The notes below the pieces were generated by a model that was not told where the DNA came from, searched no databases, and saw only the letters and a program-made list of their open reading frames with translations. From contig NZ_CP104208.1 in assembly GCF_026230175.1 (NCBI RefSeq), positions 372,001-436,000 on the forward strand: a stretch of DNA of 64,000 nucleotides. Direction: 5' to 3'. The DNA is from Desulfovibrio mangrovi. GTDB lineage: Bacteria; Desulfobacterota; Desulfovibrionia; Desulfovibrionales; Desulfovibrionaceae. Both the position numbers and the translations under genes were made by a program. Below are positions 10,909-50,116 of the stretch, piece by piece (the first letter of the stretch is position 1; the number at the start of each line of letters is the position of its first letter).

Positions 10909-12807
10909 CTATTCGCCGAACAGGCTGATGCCGCCCGTCCAAGGGTTGTCTTCCTGCTTCTGGGCCTTTGCCTGTTCGCGCTGGAGGGGTTGCTCTCCGC
11001 TGGGCAAGCTGGCTGCCATGCTCACAAGGCTGGGTGACCACTGCCACCACGCCATGGCCATGTGCTGCACAAGGCAGTCCAGCCAGTGGTTGGCACGCAC
11101 GCGCACCCACGCTTCCTTGCCGGTCTTGTCGCGTTCCAGCTTTTCCGATGCGATTTCCTTGAGATATTCGTCCGTGGTCTGCCCGTGGAAAAACAGCGGC
11201 TCTTCGCCCGCGCCTTCTGCCAATCGCCAGAAGATGTCACGCTTGAAGGCGTCCGTATCAATCCACGCCATGGTCAGGCCGCCTTGCCCCATGGCAAGAT
11301 TGCGTCCATCCGGCAGCTTTTCCACCACAGTCTGCTTCACCAGCTGACCGGGAGAAGTCCGGCTCATGCCGCGTGTGGGGAACACAACCCCGCGCCGCTG
11401 GCTGGAAAGCCACAAGAGCGCCTGCACGGGGCGGGAGTCCATCTGGTTTTCGTGCTTGGTGCCGCCCACGTCCAGCGAGGCGCGCCATATACCCAGCTCC
11501 CGTTTCCCGTCTTTCGTCTTGTACCGGCTTTGAAAAATGAGCTTGCCCAGCTCATCGAAGGTGACCACCGTTCCGTAACTGATGATCATTTCCATGCGCC
11601 CGCTACCGGCTACGCCATGCGCACACACGCTCCACTTGAAGTGGTCCTTCTGCATGTCCGCAGCAAAGGTGAGTGCCAGTGTCCACTCAGGAACCTCGCC
11701 GTTGAGCATGTGTTCTGACACATGCTTGCGCAGGGCGTTTTCGTCCTGTTCCAGCTGAATGAACTTGTACGGTTTGGCGCAGGTGTTGTTGTCCCACACC
11801 TGCAGCTTGCGCGGGTTGCCCTGCGCCTCAAACCAGTCGGCCAGCACATCGGAGAGCGACACAAGCGGGGTTTCCCACCGGCGCAGGTGAAAGGCCACCA
11901 CCGTGGCACCGTCAAGGTTTCCCTTGGTGGCAACCCACCCGCCGTTCTGCATGGCAACCGTGCGGGCGCGGTCCGTCCACGTATACCCGCAGGCAACGCA
12001 CTTGTACCGGCCCAGCTGATCGCGCCGGATCTCCTTGGGGTCCTTGCTGCCGTTCATGGCCACAAGGTGCTCATGCTCCATCACCTGCCGCGTGTGGCAG
12101 CCGGGGCACTCGCATTCATAGTTCAACCATGCATGGGCCTCTGTTTCGGCATCGGCCCATATGGTGCTCTGCTTGTCGTTCCCCTTGGGGCGGCAGGCGC
12201 GGATAATCTTCTGCAGCCCCATCTTGCTGTATTCGTCGCCGCGTTCCTGCATCGCCAGAACTATGCCCTTGTCTTGGTACACGTCTTCTTCGTCGATGAG
12301 CACAACGGCGGCTGAAAAGGAACGGGTGCGGCTGTCAGAACCGGCCCACATGCCGTATACCGCGCTGCCATCGGCAAAGCGCACTTCGTCTTTCTGCAGG
12401 GCATTGCGCCCGTGCAGCTTGGCGCGGACCGGCTTGATACCCTTGATCAACTCATGCAGGCTGCCGGTGAAATGCCGGTTCAGCGCGTTTTCATCAGCCA
12501 TGCCCATGGCTATGTTGTGGCCGTGGCGCTCATGCTCGGCCAGTGACCATATTTCCGCCGTGGTGGTTTTGGCAGCGCGGCTGCACCAGATGAAAAATGC
12601 CTTGTTGATTTCCTGTCGGTCCAGAATATCCAGAGCGCCCACAACATGCGGCAGCACGTTCGGGTCCCACGGCTGCCCCTTGTAGGGACCGTCAACAATG
12701 CGCACATGCTTGGCGGCCCAATCCACGGTACGGGCGGCATCGGGGCGGCGGAACACATCGCACTCCGCAGGCCGGAAGGTGAAAGGCGGGTTAGGCTGCA
12801 TCTGCAT
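10909..12807 (-). CDS. Terminase large subunit (GpA family)
   Basis: A 632-residue packaging motor of the lambda gpA type. An ATPase nucleotide-binding loop lies at about residues 76-82 (SRAAKTT), with Walker B at about 168-175 (VVLIDEED). A zinc-binding section follows (ECECPGCHTRQ, then YKCVACG). The C-terminal half fits the nuclease domain (WRASLDVGGT region). It cuts concatemeric DNA and pumps it through the portal. The start lies within the last 17 bases of the small-subunit gene with AAGGAG upstream, so the two are translated together. Confidence 0.92.
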   Translation of the reverse strand: MQMQPNPPFTFRPAECDVFRRPDAARTVDWAAKHVRIVDGPYKGQPWDPNVLPHVVGALDILDRQEINKAFFIWCSRAAKTTTAEIWSLAEHERHGHNIAMGMADENALNRHFTGSLHELIKGIKPVRAKLHGRNALQKDEVRFADGSAVYGMWAGSDSRTRSFSAAVVLIDEEDVYQDKGIVLAMQERGDEYSKMGLQKIIRACRPKGNDKQSTIWADAETEAHAWLNYECECPGCHTRQVMEHEHLVAMNGSKDPKEIRRDQLGRYKCVACGYTWTDRARTVAMQNGGWVATKGNLDGATVVAFHLRRWETPLVSLSDVLADWFEAQGNPRKLQVWDNNTCAKPYKFIQLEQDENALRKHVSEHMLNGEVPEWTLALTFAADMQKDHFKWSVCAHGVAGSGRMEMIISYGTVVTFDELGKLIFQSRYKTKDGKRELGIWRASLDVGGTKHENQMDSRPVQALLWLSSQRRGVVFPTRGMSRTSPGQLVKQTVVEKLPDGRNLAMGQGGLTMAWIDTDAFKRDIFWRLAEGAGEEPLFFHGQTTDEYLKEIASEKLERDKTGKEAWVRVRANHWLDCLVQHMAMAWWQWSPSLVSMAASLPSGEQPLQREQAKAQKQEDNPWTGGISLFGE

Positions 12808-23484: not shown

Positions 23485-23517
23485 AAAAAGAAAAGGGCGG
23501 GGATATCCCCGCCCTTT
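23485..23517 (-). terminator. Intrinsic terminator of the YitT-type gene
   Basis: A perfect 26-base palindrome at 23492-23517 (half-site AAAGGGCGGGGAT), followed on the minus strand by a T-rich run. It faces the NYN gene terminator. Confidence 0.8.
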
Positions 23518-25675: not shown

Positions 25676-25864
25676 TCAGCATGCCTTGGGCTGGATAGGC
25701 AGGCGGGCGTCTTTTCTGGCGGCAGCCGCAGAACCTTCCGTCTTTTCCAAGTGTATGGTTCCGGCATGTCGCACCAATGCCGACAGGTCGAGCCCCAGTC
25801 CCGTACAAGGCAACGGTGCTTGGGAGCCATGGTGCATATCTTCACGTTCGTTCGAGCGTTTCAT
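25676..25864 (-). CDS. Small protein, 62 residues, unknown function
   Basis: A short frame, MKRSNEREDMHHGSQAPLPC onward, ending LPIQPKAC. Its support is a strong GGAGG 7 bases before the ATG at 25862-25864 and an inverted repeat 23 bases further upstream. It has no membrane segment. It has two Cys and three His residues but no clear metal motif. It converges on the HtpX-like gene, with only 27 bases between stops. Confidence 0.45.
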   Translation of the reverse strand: MKRSNEREDMHHGSQAPLPCTGLGLDLSALVRHAGTIHLEKTEGSAAAARKDARLPIQPKAC

Positions 25865-25886: not shown

Positions 25887-25906
25887 TTATGTCTTGTGTG
25901 ACATAA
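25887..25906. promoter_or_regulatory. Inverted repeat upstream of the 62-residue gene
   Basis: TTATGTC, 6 bases, GACATAA. A second perfect palindrome, TGTCATGACA, lies at 25927-25936 and shares the TGTCA/GACA core. Both are in the leader of the small gene and could be operator half-sites. The rest of the gene-free stretch 25865-26173 shows no feature I can support. Confidence 0.4.
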
Positions 25907-26173
25907 TGCCTCTCTCAGCATGCCGTGTCATGACAAAAGCTGCTTCCCGTTTATGCTTGCTTTAACGCAATTCAGGCTAACTTTGAGGAATATAAGATTT
26001 TACCTTGAGGTTGTGGGGAGTTGTTTTGTGTTTGTGTCAAAGCGAAGTGAAGAGTCTCTATGTTTTCCTGTGCATTGAAGGGACCTATAAGGGGACACAT
26101 GGAGACTGCATACGTGTGAATAGTGCCGCAGTCTTTATCTTCGCGCATCATGTAACGCAACGAGGAGTTGGTC

Positions 26174-26623
26174 ATGAGTCCCGCAAGCAGACCCACTATG
26201 CGATTGCACCTGTGGCTGGAAACCGAAAAGGGCGTCTTTTTCGGTCAGGGAAGGCTGCAGTTGCTGGAGTATATTGAATACACAGGTTCGCTGAATGCGG
26301 CGGCCAAGGCGTTGGGCATGTCGTATCGGGCTGCCTGGGGCAAGATCAAGACTTCGGAAGAGGCTCTGGGTTTTCAACTTGTGGAGCAGCCTGACGGCAA
26401 GCGTGGCGGTGGTCAGCTGAGCGAAGCGGCCAAGCTGCTTATCGCCAGTTACCGTCACTGGTTGGAAGAGGTGGAAGCCTTCGCCTTGCAATCTGCCAAG
26501 AAGCACATGGATTACACCCCCGCGCAATACTGGTCGGTGCGCGAACTCCCCTCACGAAAACCACCGGAATCCATATTGTCTGCCAGTGGATCTGCCGCAG
26601 CAGATCCGGAGGCGAATCCCTAG
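26174..26623 (+). CDS. ModE-like transcription regulator, DNA-binding domain only
   Basis: A 149-residue protein. Residues about 8-110 are a winged helix-turn-helix of the ModE/LysR N-terminal type: QGRLQLLEYIEYTGSLNAAA, then KALGMSYRAAWGKIKTSEE and a wing with PDGKRGGGQLSEAAKLLIAS. E. coli ModE has two further molybdate-binding domains that are absent here; the last 40 residues look disordered. GAGGAG lies 6 bases before the ATG at 26174. It lies directly upstream of fdhA, and a palindrome resembling a ModE box sits between them, so control of the molybdenum/tungsten enzyme fdhA and possibly of itself is likely. Confidence 0.8.
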   Translation: MSPASRPTMRLHLWLETEKGVFFGQGRLQLLEYIEYTGSLNAAAKALGMSYRAAWGKIKTSEEALGFQLVEQPDGKRGGGQLSEAAKLLIASYRHWLEEVEAFALQSAKKHMDYTPAQYWSVRELPSRKPPESILSASGSAAADPEANP

Positions 26624-26658
26624 GTCGATGTACCTTTGACAGGAGTGGTGTGTCCATA

Positions 26659-26680
26659 AACATGTTAACGTTAACATGTT
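26659..26680. promoter_or_regulatory. Perfect 22-bp palindrome, likely ModE-type operator
   Basis: The half-site AACATGTTAAC is followed by its exact inverse. Its centre contains TAACGTTA flanked by CAT and ATG. As I recall, E. coli ModE operators are described as TAACGTTA elements flanked by CAT boxes. It overlaps the -35 of the predicted fdhA promoter. Confidence 0.75.
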
Positions 26681-26698
26681 GAAATTGCTAAATAATAT
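26671..26698 (+). promoter_or_regulatory. Predicted fdhA promoter
   Basis: A -35 TTAACA (26671-26676), 16-base spacer and -10 TAATAT (26693-26698), about 90 bases before fdhA. The -35 lies within the 22-bp palindrome, so bound regulator would block RNA polymerase. Confidence 0.5.
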
Positions 26699-26788
26699 TG
26701 CCAAAGAAATCTGGCCGTGGCAGCGTGATCGGGTAGGGTGTCTCCGTGGTGGAGGCGCCATGTACCTCAACCAACAGGAGGCCGACGC

Positions 26789-29700
26789 ATGGATTGCTCG
26801 CGGCGAGGATTTCTTAAACTGACCGGCGCAGGTGTCGCCTGCCTCTCGCTGGGTCAGTTGGGGTTCAATCTGTCAGAAGCGAAGGCATACGCAACGTCGC
26901 TGAAGATTGAAGGGGCAAAGGAAGTCATTACGATATGTCCGTTCTGTTCCGTCAGCTGCAACATGATTGCCCATGTTCGCGACGGAGAACTGATCAGCAC
27001 GGAAGGTGACCCGGACTTCCCCGTTAACGAAGGGGCGTTGTGTGCCAAGGGCGCGGCGCTTACGTCCATGTCCAAGAACCACCACAGGCTGCTCAAGCCC
27101 ATGTACCGTGCGCCTTACAGCGACAAGTGGGAAGAGAAGGACTGGGAATGGATGCTGGACCGCATTGCGCGACGCATCAAGGAAACCCGTGACAAGGAGA
27201 TCATTCTCCAGAACGAGAAGGGACAGACCGTAAACCGCCTTGAGTCTGTGTTCCATCTGGGAACATCGCATGCGGACAACGAAGAATGCGCCCTCATCCA
27301 TCAAGCAATGCGCGGCCTGGGAGTTGTCCATATGGACCACCAGGCGCGGATCTGACACAGCGCAACTGTAGCGGCTCTGGGAGAGTCGTTCGGACGCGGT
27401 GCAATGACCAACCACTGGATCGACATCAAGAATGCCGATGCCATCCTCATCATAGGCAGTAATGCTGCCGAACATCACCCCATTTCCTTCAAATGGGTTC
27501 TCAAGGCTAAAGACAAAGGGGCCGTGGTAATGCACGTGGACCCCAAATTCTCGAGAACGTCCGCCCGTTCCGATTTCCATGTGCCGCTTCGTTCCGGTAC
27601 GGATATCGCGTTCATGGCCGGTATGATCAATTATGTCCTCGAGAAGGGTAAGTACTTCAAGGAATACGTACTTAACTACACCAACGCCGCCACTATTGTC
27701 GGCGAAGGCTACAGCTTCAAGGACGGTATCTTCAGCGGATACGATGCCGGCAAGCGCGCCTATGACAAGAAGACCTGGGACTTCGAGTTGGATGCGAACG
27801 GTGTGCCCAAGCGGGATACCACCCTCAAACACCCCCGTTGTGTTTTCAACCTGATGAAGAAGCATTATTCCCGCTATACGCTGGATAAAGTTTCCTCCGT
27901 CACCGGTGTGACCAAGGAAAACCTGAAGCGCGTGTACGAGAACTTTGCAGCCACCGGCAAGGCAGACAAGGCTGGCACCATCATGTACGCCCTTGGCTGG
28001 ACCCAGCATACCGTAGGTGTGCAGAACATCCGCAGTGCCGGTATCTTGCAGCTTCTTCTGGGTAACATCGGTGTGGCTGGCGGTGGCATCAACGCCCTGC
28101 GCGGCGAGCCCAACGTTCAGGGCTCCACCGACCATACCCTGCTGTACCACATCATCCCCGGCTACATGGCCCAGCCCATGGCAGACTGGCAGACCTATGA
28201 AGACTATAACAAGGCCAACACGCCGGTCTCCAATGACCCGCAAAGCGCCAACTGGTGGCAGAACAAGCCCAAGTACCTGGCCAGCCTGCTCAAGGGGTGG
28301 TACGGCAACTATGCCACCAAGGATAACGGTTTCTGCTATGGCTTGCTGCCTAAGATCGAAAAGGGCGCAGACCATTCGTACATGTTCCTCTTCGACCGCA
28401 TGTACAAGAAGCAGATTACCGGCGGTTTCATTGTCGGCCTGAACCCCATGAACAGCGTGCCCAACTCCAACAAGGTTCGCAAGGCGCTCGATAATCTGGA
28501 TTGGCTGGTCACCATGGACCTGCACCATTCCGAAACCACGGATAACTGGCACCGCCCCGGCGTTGACCCCAAGACCGTGAAGACGGAAGTGTTTCTGCTG
28601 CCCTCTGCCCACCGTGTGGAGAAGGAAGGAACAGTTTCCAACTCTGGTCGCTGGCTTGTGTGGCATAACCGTGCCATTGATCCGCAGGGCGAAGCACGTC
28701 CCTTCGGTGGTCTGTACGTTCCGCTCATGAACAAGCTGCAGACCATGTACCGCAGGGAAGGCGGAACGCTTTCCGATGCCATCACCCGTCAGGACTGGCC
28801 GCAGACTTACGAGGCCGAAGAGTGGACCAAGCGTATCAACGGCTACTTCACCCGTGATACCAAGGTTGGCGACAAGCTCTACAAGAAGGGGCAGCTCGTA
28901 CCTTCGTTCGTGGCGCTCAAGGACGACGGCTCCACTTCTTCGCTGAACTGGCTGTATGCGGGCAGTTACACCGAAGAGGAGGGCAACAAGTCCAAGAAGC
29001 GGGATCTTAGCCAGACCCCCATGCAGGAAAAGATAGGTCTCTATCCGAATGTGGCATGGTGCTGGCCGGTGAACCGACGCATTCTGTACAACCGTGCATC
29101 CGTGGATGCCAACGGCAAGCCCTACAACCCCGCCAAGGCTGTTATCGAGTGGGATGGCGCCAAGTGGGTAGGTGACGTGCCGGACGGCGGTTGGCCGCCC
29201 ATGGCAAGCGGTAAGGGCAAGTTGCCCTTCATCATGAGCAAGAACGGCTTCGGCCAGCTCTTCGGCCCCGGTCGTATGGACGGTCCCTTCTCTGAGCATT
29301 ACGAGCCGGTCGAAACGCCCATTGCGTCCCATCCGTTCTCCAAGCAGCTGCACAGCCCCGTCTACAAGTTCGTTACCAGCGACATGGACGTGCTGGCAGA
29401 GCCTGCAGATCCCAGATTCCCCATCGTGTTGACGACCTACAGCCTCACAGAGCACTGGTGCGGCGGCGGTGAAACCAGAAACGTTCCCAACCTGCTGGAA
29501 ACCGAACCTCAGCTCTATGTGGAAATGAGTCCTGAACTGGCAAAGGAAAAAGGCATCGCCAACGGCGATGGCGTGATTATCGAAAGTGCGCGCGGCAGAG
29601 TTGAAGCCATTGCCATGGTGACGGTGCGTATTCGGCCGTTCCTGGTGGAAGGCAAGACTGTCCATCTTGTGGGCATGCCCTTCTGCTTCGGCTGGACGAC

Positions 29701-29830
29701 TCCCGGTACGGGCGATTCGACCAACCGTCTGACTCCCTCGGTAGGTGACCCCAACACCTCCATTCCGGAGTACAAGGCAAGCTGCGTCAATGTCCGCAAG
29801 GCCGACAAGCTCACCGAGATCGCAAAATAG
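26789..29830 (+). CDS. fdhA: Selenocysteine formate dehydrogenase, catalytic alpha subunit
   Basis: A 1013-residue periplasmic molybdenum- or tungsten-pterin enzyme that oxidises formate to CO2 (or the reverse). A Tat signal is at the N-terminus (SRRGFLKLTGAGVACLSLG). A 4Fe-4S motif follows (CPFCSVSC, with a further Cys in GALCAKG). The in-frame TGA at 27353-27355 is codon 189 and must be read as selenocysteine in ARI-Sec-HSATV, the active-site position. The reading frame then continues without a stop to 29830, with the C-terminal cofactor domain (TTYSLTEHWCGGGETRNVPN) intact. CAGGAGG precedes the ATG at 26789. The small subunit gene follows; there is no membrane cytochrome gene, so a soluble FdhAB passing electrons to cytochrome c is likely. 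Confidence 0.95.
27353..27390 (+). promoter_or_regulatory. UGA selenocysteine codon with downstream SECIS-like hairpin
   Basis: After the TGA (27353-27355), 14 bases later, AGCGGCTCT (27370-27378), loop GGG, AGAGTCGTT (27382-27390) can form a 9-pair stem including GU pairs. Bacterial SECIS hairpins lie at this kind of distance inside the coding region and bind SelB. Confidence 0.7.
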
Positions 29831-29866
29831 GCGGCCCTTTTGGGGATGCCGCCAAGGAGCATGATC

Positions 29867-30604
29867 ATGCCAAAGTCCTTTTTCATAGATACGACACGGT
29901 GCACGGCCTGCCGGGGTTGCCAGCTGGCCTGCAAGGAGTGGTTCGAGCTTCCGGCCAACAAGACCAAACAACTCGGAACACATCAGAATCCGCCGGATTT
30001 GAATCCCTACAACTATAAACTGGTTCGTTTCAGCGAACATCTGATCGGTGACAAGGTGGAGTGGTATTTCTTCCCCGACCAGTGCCGTCACTGTCTGAAT
30101 CCTCCCTGTCAGGGGGCCGCAGACACCGTACTTGAAGGTGCAGTCATTCAGGATGATGCCACCGGAGCCGTCATATTCACCGAAAAATCTGCTCAGATAT
30201 CCAAGGAGGATTTCGAGTACGTCCGCGAGTCCTGTCCTTACGACATTCCTCGCCGTGACGAGAAGACCGGCCGCATGACCAAGTGTGTCATGTGCATAGA
30301 TCGCGTTCAGGCGGGCATGTTGCCTGCCTGTGTGAAGGTTTGCCCCACAGGCACCATGAACTTTGGTGAACGTGAGCAGATGCTGGCGATGGCGGAAAAG
30401 AGGCTGGCGCTCGTCAGGAAGACGCATCCCAACGCCATGCTGGCCGACCAGCACGATGTGAACGTGATTTACCTGCTTGCGGACGCCCCGGAACGCTATC
30501 ACACCCATAGCGTTGCGCAGGTCGCCCCCATGGGCCGCAAGCAGCTGTTCGCATCCCTGCGAAAGCCTCGTGCTTCCGCACAGGGAAACACCGAACGGAG
30601 TTAG
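29867..30604 (+). CDS. fdhB: Formate dehydrogenase iron-sulfur (beta) subunit
   Basis: A 245-residue electron-transfer subunit with 4Fe-4S motifs: CTACRGCQLACKEW near residue 12, CRHCLNPPCQGAA, CPYDIPRRD, then KCVMCIDRVQAGMLPACVKVCPTG. No signal peptide is present; it would travel folded with FdhA through the Tat pathway. AAGGAG is 7 bases before the ATG at 29867; an in-frame ATG at 29861 is possible but too close. It starts 36 bases after fdhA. Confidence 0.93.
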   Translation: MPKSFFIDTTRCTACRGCQLACKEWFELPANKTKQLGTHQNPPDLNPYNYKLVRFSEHLIGDKVEWYFFPDQCRHCLNPPCQGAADTVLEGAVIQDDATGAVIFTEKSAQISKEDFEYVRESCPYDIPRRDEKTGRMTKCVMCIDRVQAGMLPACVKVCPTGTMNFGEREQMLAMAEKRLALVRKTHPNAMLADQHDVNVIYLLADAPERYHTHSVAQVAPMGRKQLFASLRKPRASAQGNTERS

Positions 30605-30663: not shown

Positions 30664-30721
30664 GCTTTGAAAGAAATGTTAGCCTCGGACAATGTACAGC
30701 CAACGCATCAGGAGTCTTCAG

Positions 30722-31693
30722 ATGACCAAGGACACCGCTCTCTCTTCAGTATCTTCCGATCCCGCAGTTGATCCTTTTGCAGGCAGCAAGCGCTCCGGTG
30801 CAGCCGAAACCCTGTCGGCTGCCTGTGTCCGCCGTCCGGCGCTGGCCTCGGTGTTGTCTCCCTTCATTCCCTTGTTTGCGGCAAAGGAAGAGGTTTGCGA
30901 AGAATTGAAGGCGGGCCTGAATCCCGTGCCGGAGTTGATGCATCCTGATGTGGCCCGGCTTGAAGGCGGGGTAGCTCTGCTGGCCTCTGTGTCTCTGGAC
31001 TGGCTGGTGGCCCCGTTCAAGCAGGCTGCTTCTCGTTTGCTGCCTCATCTTGCATCCCTGCCCGCGTTGGCCGGGCATGTAACCCGTTACCTTGAGGCGT
31101 TGGAGTCCGGTTCGATTGATGCTGCGGCCATCTCTCAGGCCTGTCTAGCCAGCGATGCCGCAGGGCTGGAGCGAATGGCTCAGGCTGTACAGATGCCTGC
31201 TCCGGTGCTTGTTTTCCTGACTCATCAGGCATTGGGCACGGTGCTTCGTGCTGCCCGCGAGATAAGTGCTCCGGTCGTTCCCTCCGTGCAGTGGCGCGAA
31301 GGCTATTGTCCTGTCTGCGGCTCGTTTCCGTCTCTGGGATGCCTCGGACGGCCCGATCCCGATCAGTCCGAGTTCGTCAAAGGAGGGGGAGGACACAAGT
31401 ATCTGCACTGCTCTTTGTGCGGGAACGACTGGCGATATCGCCGTGGTGCCTGTCCCGCGTGCAGTAATGAGGATCCCGGTGCAATTGAGTACATGCGGGC
31501 AAAGGAAAGCCCGTGGGAGCGGGTTGAGCTGTGTCGCAAGTGCAATACGTATGTCGCCGCACTTGATTTGCGGGAAACTGTTGATAGCCCGGATCTTGAT
31601 GCTGCAGCCATAGGCCTCATGCACCTTGATCTTCTTGCGGCATCCGAGGGGTTGCGGCCTCTGGCTCCCTCGCTCTGGAACTCCTTCGATTAG
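30722..31693 (+). CDS. fdhE: Formate dehydrogenase accessory protein FdhE
   Basis: A 323-residue cytosolic maturation factor that interacts with the catalytic subunit before export. The C-terminal half has the paired rubredoxin-like metal sites of the family: YCPVCGSFPSL, YLHCSLCGNDWRYRR with CPACSNED, and LCRKCNTYVAALDLR. CAGGAG is 8 bases before the ATG at 30722; the upstream ATG at 30692 lacks one. It lies 15 bases before fdhD. Confidence 0.9.
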   Translation: MTKDTALSSVSSDPAVDPFAGSKRSGAAETLSAACVRRPALASVLSPFIPLFAAKEEVCEELKAGLNPVPELMHPDVARLEGGVALLASVSLDWLVAPFKQAASRLLPHLASLPALAGHVTRYLEALESGSIDAAAISQACLASDAAGLERMAQAVQMPAPVLVFLTHQALGTVLRAAREISAPVVPSVQWREGYCPVCGSFPSLGCLGRPDPDQSEFVKGGGGHKYLHCSLCGNDWRYRRGACPACSNEDPGAIEYMRAKESPWERVELCRKCNTYVAALDLRETVDSPDLDAAAIGLMHLDLLAASEGLRPLAPSLWNSFD

Positions 31694-31708: not shown

Positions 31709-32569
31709 ATGCAGACTATCAAGCGCACCATATTGCGGTATCGGGAAGGCGGAGCACGCACATCCGACGACACCATACTGACAGAGGCGACGTTGGAAAT
31801 CGTGGTGAACGGCGTACCATGGGCTGCCCTTATGTGTACTCCGGGCAGTGATGAAGATCTTGCACTCGGCTTCTGTCTGACGGAGGGGCTGATGACGCCC
31901 TACGAGACATACGGGGTCGAAGGGCGTGAGAGTATGCCTGATGGCAGTCGGCTTCATCTTGTCATCAGCGGGGGGGCTGAGCGGGTTCATGCTGCTTTGA
32001 GTGGGCGCGGGATGCGTACCGGAGCCTCCTGTTGCGGAAATCGTAGCGCCACCCGTGCGGAGGATCTGATACGCATCATTCCCGCCGTGTCTGATGATTA
32101 TCGTATTTCTCCCGGGCAGTTACACCAGTTGCAGATGGAGTCTGAGGCGTGCCAAGCCTTGTTCGACAGCACCGGCGCTACACATTTCTGCGCTTTGTAT
32201 GATGCAGAAAACTCCATGCTTGCCTATGCGGAGGATGTGGGGCGGCATAACGCCCTCGACAAGGCCGCAGGGCAGGCGTTCCGGCTCGGCAGGTTGCAGA
32301 GGGCGCGGCTTGTGCTGTTATCGTCACGGCTCAGTTTTGAGATGGTACAGAAATCCATTGCGCTCGGGGCACAGGTGGTAGCCGGATTCTCTGCCGTGAC
32401 CAGCAGGGCGGTGGCCTTGGCTGAGTCGTCCGGCGTTACGCTAGTCGGTTTCCTGCGCTCACCGCGTCTGAATATTTACACCCACCCTGTCAGATTGGGA
32501 TATGAGTCCCCGGGTGTTTCGCTGCATCATGTTGACATGTCTAAGTATTTTCCTGGGTTGTCTTCCTGA
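31709..32569 (+). CDS. fdhD: Formate dehydrogenase accessory sulfurtransferase FdhD
   Basis: A 286-residue protein that transfers sulfur from IscS to the pterin cofactor of formate dehydrogenase. Family landmarks are VPWAALMCTPGSDEDLALGF, the THFCALYD and EDVGRHNALDKA segments, and TSRAVALAESSGVTLVGFLR. The cysteine loop reads TGASCCGNRS, with two adjacent cysteines rather than the C-x-x-C form I expect from E. coli FdhD. It is the third gene of the fdh accessory group, after fdhE. Confidence 0.92.
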   Translation: MQTIKRTILRYREGGARTSDDTILTEATLEIVVNGVPWAALMCTPGSDEDLALGFCLTEGLMTPYETYGVEGRESMPDGSRLHLVISGGAERVHAALSGRGMRTGASCCGNRSATRAEDLIRIIPAVSDDYRISPGQLHQLQMESEACQALFDSTGATHFCALYDAENSMLAYAEDVGRHNALDKAAGQAFRLGRLQRARLVLLSSRLSFEMVQKSIALGAQVVAGFSAVTSRAVALAESSGVTLVGFLRSPRLNIYTHPVRLGYESPGVSLHHVDMSKYFPGLSS

Positions 32570-32695: not shown

Positions 32696-34354
32696 ATGAC
32701 GCAAGGTTTCAGGAATATCGGTGAACACACTTTCGACGAGTTCGTCGAAATGGCTACGCTCTTTCATAACTATCCCGCGCCGGGACTCATTCTTGGCGGT
32801 TACATGGTTGAGGAGGCCAAGCGGCATATTCCTGAAGGAACCCTCTACGAGGCCATAGCCGAAACGGCATGGTGTCTGCCCGACGCCATTCAGATGCTTA
32901 CCCCCTGTACCATCGGCAACGGATGGGTGCGGGTCATGAATTTCGGCCTGTACGCCATGAGTCTGTTTGACAAGCGTACCGGCAAGGGCGTGCGCGTGTG
33001 GCTGGATATGCACAAGCTTGCCGAAGATTCGGAACTCCTCACGTGGTACCTCAAGCGCAAGCCTAAGCATGAACAGGATTCAGACAAGCTTCTGCGTGAA
33101 ATAGGTGAAGCGGGGGCGGACATCCTTTCCGTGCGGCCCATCCAGCTTCGGGCCGACCTGCTGGTCAAGCGCAGCAAGGGCGGCATTGGCGAATGCCCCG
33201 TCTGTCATGAGGCCTATCCCACGGTGCATGGTCCCATCTGCCGTTCCTGCAAGGGCGAGAATCCCTATGACAACAGTCTGGGCGATGCCCCCGGCGGCGT
33301 GGTGTATCCTTTGCCCAGCGCCATCAGGACCGTTGCGGCGGAGGAGGCCATGGGGCGTGAAGTGCTGCACGACATGACCAGCATTGACCCCGGCAAGAGC
33401 AAGGGAGCCGCCTTCCGCAAAGGTCAGGTTTTTGATGTGGGCGATCTGTGCCGTCTGCAGCATATGGGCCGTAACAACCTGTATGTCGAGACCGGTGAAG
33501 TGGGTGAAGAGTGGGTGCATGAGAATGACTGTGCCGAAGCCTTTGCCAAGGGACTTTCCGGTGAGGGGGTTGTGAGCGGCGGAGAACCGCATGAGGGCAA
33601 GGTGACGCTCAAGGCGGCCTACGATGGCCTGTTCCGCGTGAACACGGATGCTCTTTATGCCTTCAACCTCTGCCCCGGCGTTATGGCGGCGAGCCGTAAC
33701 GGCTGGACCATGGTGAAGGAAGGCGCAGAAGTGGCAGGTACCCGCGCTGTGCCCCTGTACCTGCAGCGGGCTGATTTTGTCAGGGCCATGCAGGCGCTGG
33801 AAGCATCTGACACGCCCATTTTCAGTGTTCTGCCCCTGCGCAAGGCGCAGGTTGGCGTGCTGATCACCGGAGACGAGGTGTTCAGCGGCAAGATTGAAGA
33901 CCGGTTTGAAGAGATCATCCGTAAAAAAGTTACGGCGCTTGGCAGTGAAGTGCATCGTGCCATCATTGTGCCGGACAACCGGGACATGATCCGTGACAAC
34001 GCCCGTGCGCTGCTGGACGAAGGCTGCAACATCATCATCACCACGGCCGGTTTGTCCGTAGACCCCGACGATGTGACCCGCCACGGTCTTGTGGATGCAG
34101 GAGCACATGACATGCTCTACGGCGCGCCGCTGTTGCCCGGCACCATGACGCTCATCGGGAAGATCGGTACTGCGCGCCTGCTGGGCGTTCCCGCCTGTGC
34201 GCTCTTCTTCAAGCACACCAGTCTGGACCTGATTCTGCCCCGTTTGCTGGCGGACGTGGATGTGACCCGCGATGACCTTGCCCGCATGGGTGAGGGAGGC
34301 ATGTGTCTCGGCTGCGCCAACTGTACCTTCCCCAAGTGTCCGTTCGGCAAGTAG
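32696..34354 (+). CDS. FmdE domain-molybdopterin-binding domain fusion protein
   Basis: A 552-residue protein. Residues about 10-150 form an FmdE domain (APGLILGGYMVEEAKRHIP, LPDAIQMLTPCTIGNGWVRV). A zinc ribbon follows at about 185-210 (ECPVCHEAYP, ICRSCKGEN). Residues about 375-520 form a MoaB/MoeA-type molybdopterin-binding domain (KAQVGVLITGDEVFSGKIED, IIITTAGLSVDPDDVTRHGL). The C-terminus is Cys-rich: CLGCANCTFPKCPFGK. It lies 126 bases after fdhD in the same direction. A role in handling or inserting the Mo/W-pterin cofactor for formate dehydrogenase is inference. Confidence 0.8.
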   Translation: MTQGFRNIGEHTFDEFVEMATLFHNYPAPGLILGGYMVEEAKRHIPEGTLYEAIAETAWCLPDAIQMLTPCTIGNGWVRVMNFGLYAMSLFDKRTGKGVRVWLDMHKLAEDSELLTWYLKRKPKHEQDSDKLLREIGEAGADILSVRPIQLRADLLVKRSKGGIGECPVCHEAYPTVHGPICRSCKGENPYDNSLGDAPGGVVYPLPSAIRTVAAEEAMGREVLHDMTSIDPGKSKGAAFRKGQVFDVGDLCRLQHMGRNNLYVETGEVGEEWVHENDCAEAFAKGLSGEGVVSGGEPHEGKVTLKAAYDGLFRVNTDALYAFNLCPGVMAASRNGWTMVKEGAEVAGTRAVPLYLQRADFVRAMQALEASDTPIFSVLPLRKAQVGVLITGDEVFSGKIEDRFEEIIRKKVTALGSEVHRAIIVPDNRDMIRDNARALLDEGCNIIITTAGLSVDPDDVTRHGLVDAGAHDMLYGAPLLPGTMTLIGKIGTARLLGVPACALFFKHTSLDLILPRLLADVDVTRDDLARMGEGGMCLGCANCTFPKCPFGK

Positions 34355-50088: not shown

Positions 50089-50116
50089 GGCGTCTTATGA
50101 AATTTCATAAGACGCC
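50089..50116 (-). promoter_or_regulatory. 28-bp perfect palindrome after acpP
   Basis: The half-site GGCGTCTTATGAAA is exactly repeated in inverse. On the minus strand it lies 27 bases past the acpP stop. It would fold as a 12-pair hairpin with an AAAT loop, with no T-run after it. It probably stabilises acpP message or acts as an attenuator before fabF. The rest of the gap to fabF (49931-50088) shows nothing else clear. Confidence 0.6.

Follow-up and report, generated by a model that had tools for sequence, protein, structure and literature searches.

In Escherichia coli, as at the locus described here, the ModE operator is an inverted repeat at a promoter. Regulation by Mo/W in sulfate reducers, the context proposed below for this locus, is reportedly exerted by TunR (said to have been described by Kazakov et al. 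in 2013), in which an integrase-type DNA-binding domain is reportedly joined to molbindin domains and which is said to be the owner of a CGGTCACG-type motif. In Campylobacter jejuni, Taveirne et al. reportedly found in 2009 that a ModE-like protein controls Mo and W transporters, and this protein is said to possess no metal-binding domain. Formate dehydrogenase levels in sulfate reducers follow the metal supply, and these dehydrogenases are enzymes of interest for CO2 reduction. The E. coli ModE consensus reads ATCGNTATATA-N6-TATATANCGAT in the accessible part of PMC545781, and a nearly identical consensus stands in that of PMC2700814. According to the accessible text of Rodionov et al. 2004 (PMC545781), lone ModE domains occur in two Desulfovibrio species and D. 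psychrophila, E. coli-type sites were not found in those sulfate reducers, and a motif CGGTCACG-N14-CGTGACCG was proposed upstream of mod genes; Mo-sensing by single-domain ModE was called unclear, and for Desulfovibrio, the study counted the DNA sites and the sensing of such proteins as unknown at that time. Finally, TaoR (Rajeev et al. 2019) is a regulator of a tungstoenzyme, genes for aldehyde ferredoxin oxidoreductase (AOR) being its known kind of target (PMC11980592, accessible part). Within the openly licensed PMC literature, as far as its text is accessible, no description of the fdhA operator proposed below was found.

We studied a stretch of 64,000 nucleotides from Desulfovibrio mangrovi (hereafter the window), in which a perfect 22-bp palindrome, AACATGTTAACGTTAACATGTT (26659-26680), lies between a gene for a ModE-like regulator (26174-26623, plus strand) and fdhA (26789-29830, plus strand), 35 bp beyond the regulator's stop (26623). 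From sequence comparison and a structure model, this palindrome is probably the operator bound by the single-domain ModE-type protein encoded beside it, and that protein would control fdhA, most likely as a block to RNA polymerase. Being conserved, unique and placed over a promoter, the dyad is a concrete candidate DNA target for proteins of this kind, and may help explain how metal supply sets formate dehydrogenase levels in sulfate reducers.

The regulator comprises 149 aa, with an ATG at 26174 after GAGGAG and an alternative TTG start at 26168. It contains one LysR-type helix-turn-helix (PF00126 in Pfam) and matches both the ModE repressor domain profile TIGR00637 (E 1e-17, 64 bits, under the cut-off of 98.5) and the sequence of PDB 1b9m (E 4e-7). 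Its AlphaFold2 model has a mean pLDDT of 85.7, with low pLDDT and no regular structure beyond about residue 120, and is structurally closest to domain I of E. coli ModE (1b9m; Z 14.5, rmsd 1.9 over 102 residues, 26% identity), followed by 2ijl, a putative ModE of Agrobacterium (Z 12.9); LysR-type domains rank below both ModE structures, at Z about 10. Pfam and NCBIfam revealed in the 149 residues neither a TOBE or molbindin domain, nor the integrase-type plus molbindin architecture of TunR, nor the HTH_17 plus PBP_like architecture of TaoR. The regulator is ModE domain I only, devoid of a molybdate-binding domain, and belongs to the single-domain ModE group of the Desulfovibrionales, having domain I alone and being linked to Mo/W genes. 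No other ModE-like gene was found in its own genome at E <= 0.001, where the sole TOBE match at this threshold is an ABC-transporter ATPase. The nearest relative among the named records found is encoded by a Halodesulfovibrio MAG (91% identity).

The gene behind the palindrome encodes an alpha subunit of the formate dehydrogenase-N type (TIGR01553, 1356 bits against a cut-off of 814, with TGA read as a residue); it starts with the ATG at 26789, and its in-frame TGA at 27353-27355 likely encodes selenocysteine. It is followed on the plus strand by genes for an fdhB-like iron-sulfur subunit (29840-30604; best match TIGR01582, FDH-beta, under its cut-off), an fdhE-like protein (30692-31693; family scores under the cut-offs), an fdhD-like protein (31709-32569) and a molybdopterin-related FmdE plus MoCF_biosynth protein (32696-34354).

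Dinucleotide shuffling of the window, repeated 100 times, never yielded the palindrome within three mismatches, and AACATGTTAACGTTAACATGTT occurs once in the genome of 3,947,083 bases when three mismatches are allowed. A promoter scan predicts a sigma-70-like promoter for fdhA on the plus strand at 26671-26698, with TTAACA (26671-26676) and TAATAT (26693-26698) separated by 16 bp; between 26560 and 26860 two overlapping promoter-like matches were obtained where 0.2 are expected. It is the sole promoter predicted in that range; with 9 of 12 positions matching it is imperfect, and its -35 box sits within the right arm of the palindrome, so that the candidate operator covers the -35. The main observations of the earlier note, a perfect 22-bp palindrome just after a ModE-like gene and over the -35 of a TTAACA-16-TAATAT promoter, are confirmed, and the range that it gave (26659-26698) corresponds to the palindrome plus the -10. 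An AT-rich block just 3' of the palindrome (26682-26699), which is kept in relatives, is perhaps the promoter and perhaps a second site.

Across 149 genomes from the class, 109 contain a regulator homologue (E <= 1e-8), and the loci retrieved include 31 pairs in the order regulator-fdhA, at most 1200 bp apart. Reading 23 upstream regions by eye revealed a similar dyad in most of them (e.g. CAATGTGTTAAATATAACATATTG), and an imperfect dyad with the core TGYTA-N4-TAACAYRTTG is shared before fdhA in many relatives. We compared upstream regions by means of a palindromic matrix; its training set was 36 fdhA upstreams from outside the genus of the window, 31 of which contributed. Under this matrix the site described here scores highest in the 64 kb, with 17.8 bits against -0.7 for the runner-up. 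In all eight further upstreams from the window's genus the best match is at -129 to -134, with scores of 5.0 to 17.1 bits and an eroded left arm; one of the eight (L007) stays below the best of 60 shuffles. All six upstreams from regulator-free genomes score -8.8 bits or less, and four from genomes with a weak homologue reach 12.1, 10.8, 7.3 and -21.0 bits, at other positions. A good site is missing in five of the 36 out-of-genus upstreams despite a regulator before fdhA (L042, L044, L045, L049, L075).

Searching the 149 genomes for the exact pattern TGYTANNNNTAACAYRYTG gave hits in 36, against 5 hits of the reversed control. With strands merged these are 38 places, of which 32 (in 31 genomes) lie at most 250 bp before a listed fdhA, and six elsewhere; 14 of the 31 genomes are outside the upstreams that had been read when the pattern was written. 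A close fdhA, taken as a listed row with E of 8.5e-79 or lower, is present in 106 genomes; the site precedes it in 31 of the 83 that have a regulator, any paralogue being counted, and in none of the 23 without (Fisher 1.6e-4, uncorrected for kinship); no exact TGYTANNNNTAACAYRYTG was found upstream of fdhA in the remaining 52 of the 83. Against this background chance is a negligible explanation of the palindrome: the window does hold two more perfect gapless palindromes of 22 bp or more besides AACATGTTAACGTTAACATGTT (three in all), and both, at 50089-50116 (28 bp) and 23492-23517 (26 bp), exceed it in length, but conservation and placement across genera refute an accidental origin. Conservation upstream of fdhA orthologues, which the earlier note had made a check of its proposal, thus extends to many relatives, by the matrix as well as by 32 of the 38 pattern places, and fails in some. 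Selenium is not what these genes have in common: three site-bearing fdhA genes (G104, G101, G066) have open frames of 1034-1049 aa, so that a selenocysteine codon is unnecessary for its presence.

In four upstreams (L088, L089, L100, L163) the site is present without a regulator gene in the 700 bp before that fdhA, and the site is therefore neither the regulator's terminator nor its 3' tail. A terminator or RNA hairpin ending the regulator gene would account for the ability of the RNA to fold (-11.5 kcal/mol), but the z-score of this fold is only -1.26 and a terminator scan of the plus strand from 26560 to 26860 found none, which together with the four loci makes this explanation very improbable. 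Some further arrangements were noted in passing. A close relative (G090) carries two tandem regulator-fdhA cassettes (L036:1867-10355), the second with a diverged operator and an additional dyad, ATAGATATGTTTTAAAATACATATCTAA, upstream of its regulator. In a MAG locus (L032) a second regulator follows fdhA. G104 has, behind its regulator gene, a short stretch resembling fdhA (residues 142-175; L023:1504-2044), and a full-length fdhA with operator is found elsewhere in that genome, possibly reflecting loss of the regulator-adjacent fdhA.

A profile of 41 upstreams, aligned on the sites picked by the matrix and including two from genomes with a weak homologue (L152, L155), shows TGYTA and TAACAYRTTG as the most conserved parts around a variable centre; the conservation of the arms is in part by construction, since the matrix picked the sites. 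Past the right arm, some 18 bases of AT-rich sequence are likewise conserved. Of 40 accepted sites, 28 start at -127 to -134 relative to the ATG and the others between -113 and -151. These regularities bear on the main rival of repression, in which the same protein occupies the same operator and activates fdhA by touching RNA polymerase from the site that overlaps the -35. An often constant distance to the ATG, a conserved AT-rich block downstream, as a fixed activator-promoter geometry would give, and an imperfect promoter all speak for activation, but a site on the -35 box fits occlusion at least equally well, and we regard activation as a real possibility that is nonetheless clearly the less probable one. 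Our preference for repression derives from the geometry only, i.e. from the position of the site on the -35.

In a tree of the regulators, the site-bearing ones are strongly clustered and do not form one clade (8 label changes against a shuffled mean of 25). ModE-like paralogues lie divergent from MATE transporter genes in four genomes (L041, L047, L063, L073; MatE confirmed), and single ones adjoin tupA (L054), modA (L053) and FmdE (L066). The fdhA operator was rejected as a candidate at the MATE, tupA and modA loci, where the best matrix scores range from -2.3 to -16.8 and no intergenic palindrome of the fdhA type was seen; at other paralogue loci the best matches are weak (L066 12.5, L061 10.3, L060 8.3, L015 7.1). 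Similarly, a regulon spread over the own genome was discarded, the pattern TGYTANNNNTAACAYRYT with at most two mismatches occurring at 43+40 places against 44+42 for the reversed control. This genome also encodes tupA-like and modA-like genes, and no fdhA-type site was detected at either (best matrix scores -6.8 and -9.7); nor does the CGGTCACG-N14-CGTGACCG motif fit there, its best match having five mismatches. The wider Mo/W regulon implied by the earlier note is not borne out in this genome, which holds no second site above background and none at the tupA- and modA-like loci.

A different dyad, TTATGTC-N6-GACATAA (25887-25906; in full TTATGTC-TTGTGT-GACATAA), is located upstream of the regulator gene, between the latter and a small divergent ORF on the minus strand (25676-25864; 62 aa, containing PCTGLGLD and matching no Pfam family). 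It shares the spacing ATGT-N8-ACAT with the fdhA operator (ATGTTAACGTTAACAT) and is a candidate autoregulatory or Mo/W-regulator site. Compared with the E. coli ModE site it agrees at 10 of 14 core positions, which is among the four best in the window, and against the full E. coli consensus it agrees at 11 of 20, outside the window's top. Within 350 bp upstream of 76 different ModE-like genes, exact ATGT-N8-ACAT occurs at 16 (mean of shuffles 0.31, maximum 2), and ATGT and ACAT at spacings of 4-7 and 9-14 occur 0 to 2 times each. Another dyad of this spacing with extended arms (GAGCATGTGTTCTGACACATGCTTG) lies at 11702-11729 of the window.

The full TTATGTC-N6-GACATAA was found in 29 of the 149 genomes, against 3 for the reversed control, and all 29 belong to the 109 genomes with a ModE-like gene (none of the 40 without; kinship uncorrected). 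We read these 29 loci and ran Pfam on ten of the proteins encoded nearby. Aldehyde ferredoxin oxidoreductase adjoins the dyad in three loci (L173, L192, L197), a MoCF_biosynth protein in two (L176, L183) and FmdE in one (L182), and a molybdopterin Fe4S4 protein with a TAT signal is encoded nearby in L188; these neighbours in relatives tie the dyad to Mo/W enzymes. The other proteins run are a transposase (L186) and small ORFs without a family (L187, L189). The ModE-like gene itself adjoins the dyad at six of the 29 loci (L169, L172, L176, L177, L179, L193). Small ORFs with a PFxGLGF stretch, resembling PCTGLGLD, occur beside the dyad in L184, L187, L189, L194 and L195, and L188 has one more ORF between the dyad and the molybdopterin-oxidoreductase gene. 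In the own genome, TATGTYN6RACATA with at most one mismatch is found 14 times and its control 10 times, which is near background, and the remaining two exact matches to TATGTC-N6-GACATA (L199, L200) fall inside long ORFs.

The owner of this dyad may be the ModE-like protein or a TaoR-type protein (HTH_17 plus PBP_like) that the own genome encodes (L242). The latter raises a second rival for the fdhA palindrome as well, which could be owned by another regulator with a similar half-site, for example one of the TaoR type. Its presence in the genome and the occurrence of the related TTATGTC-N6-GACATAA next to AOR genes in relatives, TaoR's known kind of target in the accessible part of PMC11980592, favour such an owner. 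However, the TTATGTC dyad has a different sequence from the fdhA operator, and it is a ModE-like gene that directly precedes the palindrome. Moreover, PBP_like matches are found in 142 of the 149 genomes (a poor count of TaoR, because the frame lengths make most best matches larger proteins), and none of the 23 close-fdhA genomes that lack a ModE-like gene has the exact fdhA operator. We therefore regard a foreign owner of the palindrome as unlikely.

If the adjacent single-domain regulator is the owner, its winged-helix dimer would recognise the half-sites ATGTTA and TAACAT in the spacing ATGT-N8-ACAT, and the bound dimer, lying on the -35 box of the fdhA promoter, would block RNA polymerase. 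As far as the sites indicate, fdhA would be the only gene so controlled in this genome. Since the regulator has no ligand domain, a Mo/W- or cofactor-related signal would have to reach it through a partner, through its amount, as set at the 25887-25906 dyad, or through some other ligand. More speculatively, the single-domain ModE proteins of sulfate reducers might use a dyad code of their own (half-site YATGT, spacing ATGT-N8-ACAT), and the present locus might be a two-step switch, in which the Mo/W-linked dyad sets the amount of the regulator and the pocket-less regulator acts on one dedicated fdhA operator; we offer this only as a tentative proposal.

Compared with the described systems, the locus combines familiar and divergent features. 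The ModE-like protein of C. jejuni belongs to a different phylum and has transporter targets rather than fdhA, and the DNA-binding domain of TaoR is unlike that of the regulator beside the palindrome. E. coli ModE shares the fold of its DNA-binding domain with the regulator (Z 14.5); it differs in its TOBE/molbindin domains, none of which was found in the 149-aa protein, and in its target, which is modABC there and fdhA here. At the sequence level, the palindrome matches ATCGNTATATA-N6-TATATANCGAT at 10 of 20 positions, with 89 better and 243 equal positions in the window, and the E. coli core at 6 of 14, so that an E. coli-type operator was rejected as background. The resemblance to the E. 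coli operator that the earlier note had drawn from TAACGTTA consequently dissolves, as TAACGTTA is the variable centre and the consensus match is at background. Its idea of a ModE-type operator survives in a narrower form, that of a conserved dyad beside a ModE-like gene and, judging from the comparisons above, most likely that gene's target, and gives up the likeness to the E. coli sequence. A further counterpart is the single-domain ModE of Desulfovibrio as presented in the accessible text of PMC545781, which is the same kind of protein as the regulator; the CGGTCACG-N14-CGTGACCG motif of that study was proposed at mod genes, whereas the candidate operator described here differs in sequence and sits at fdhA.
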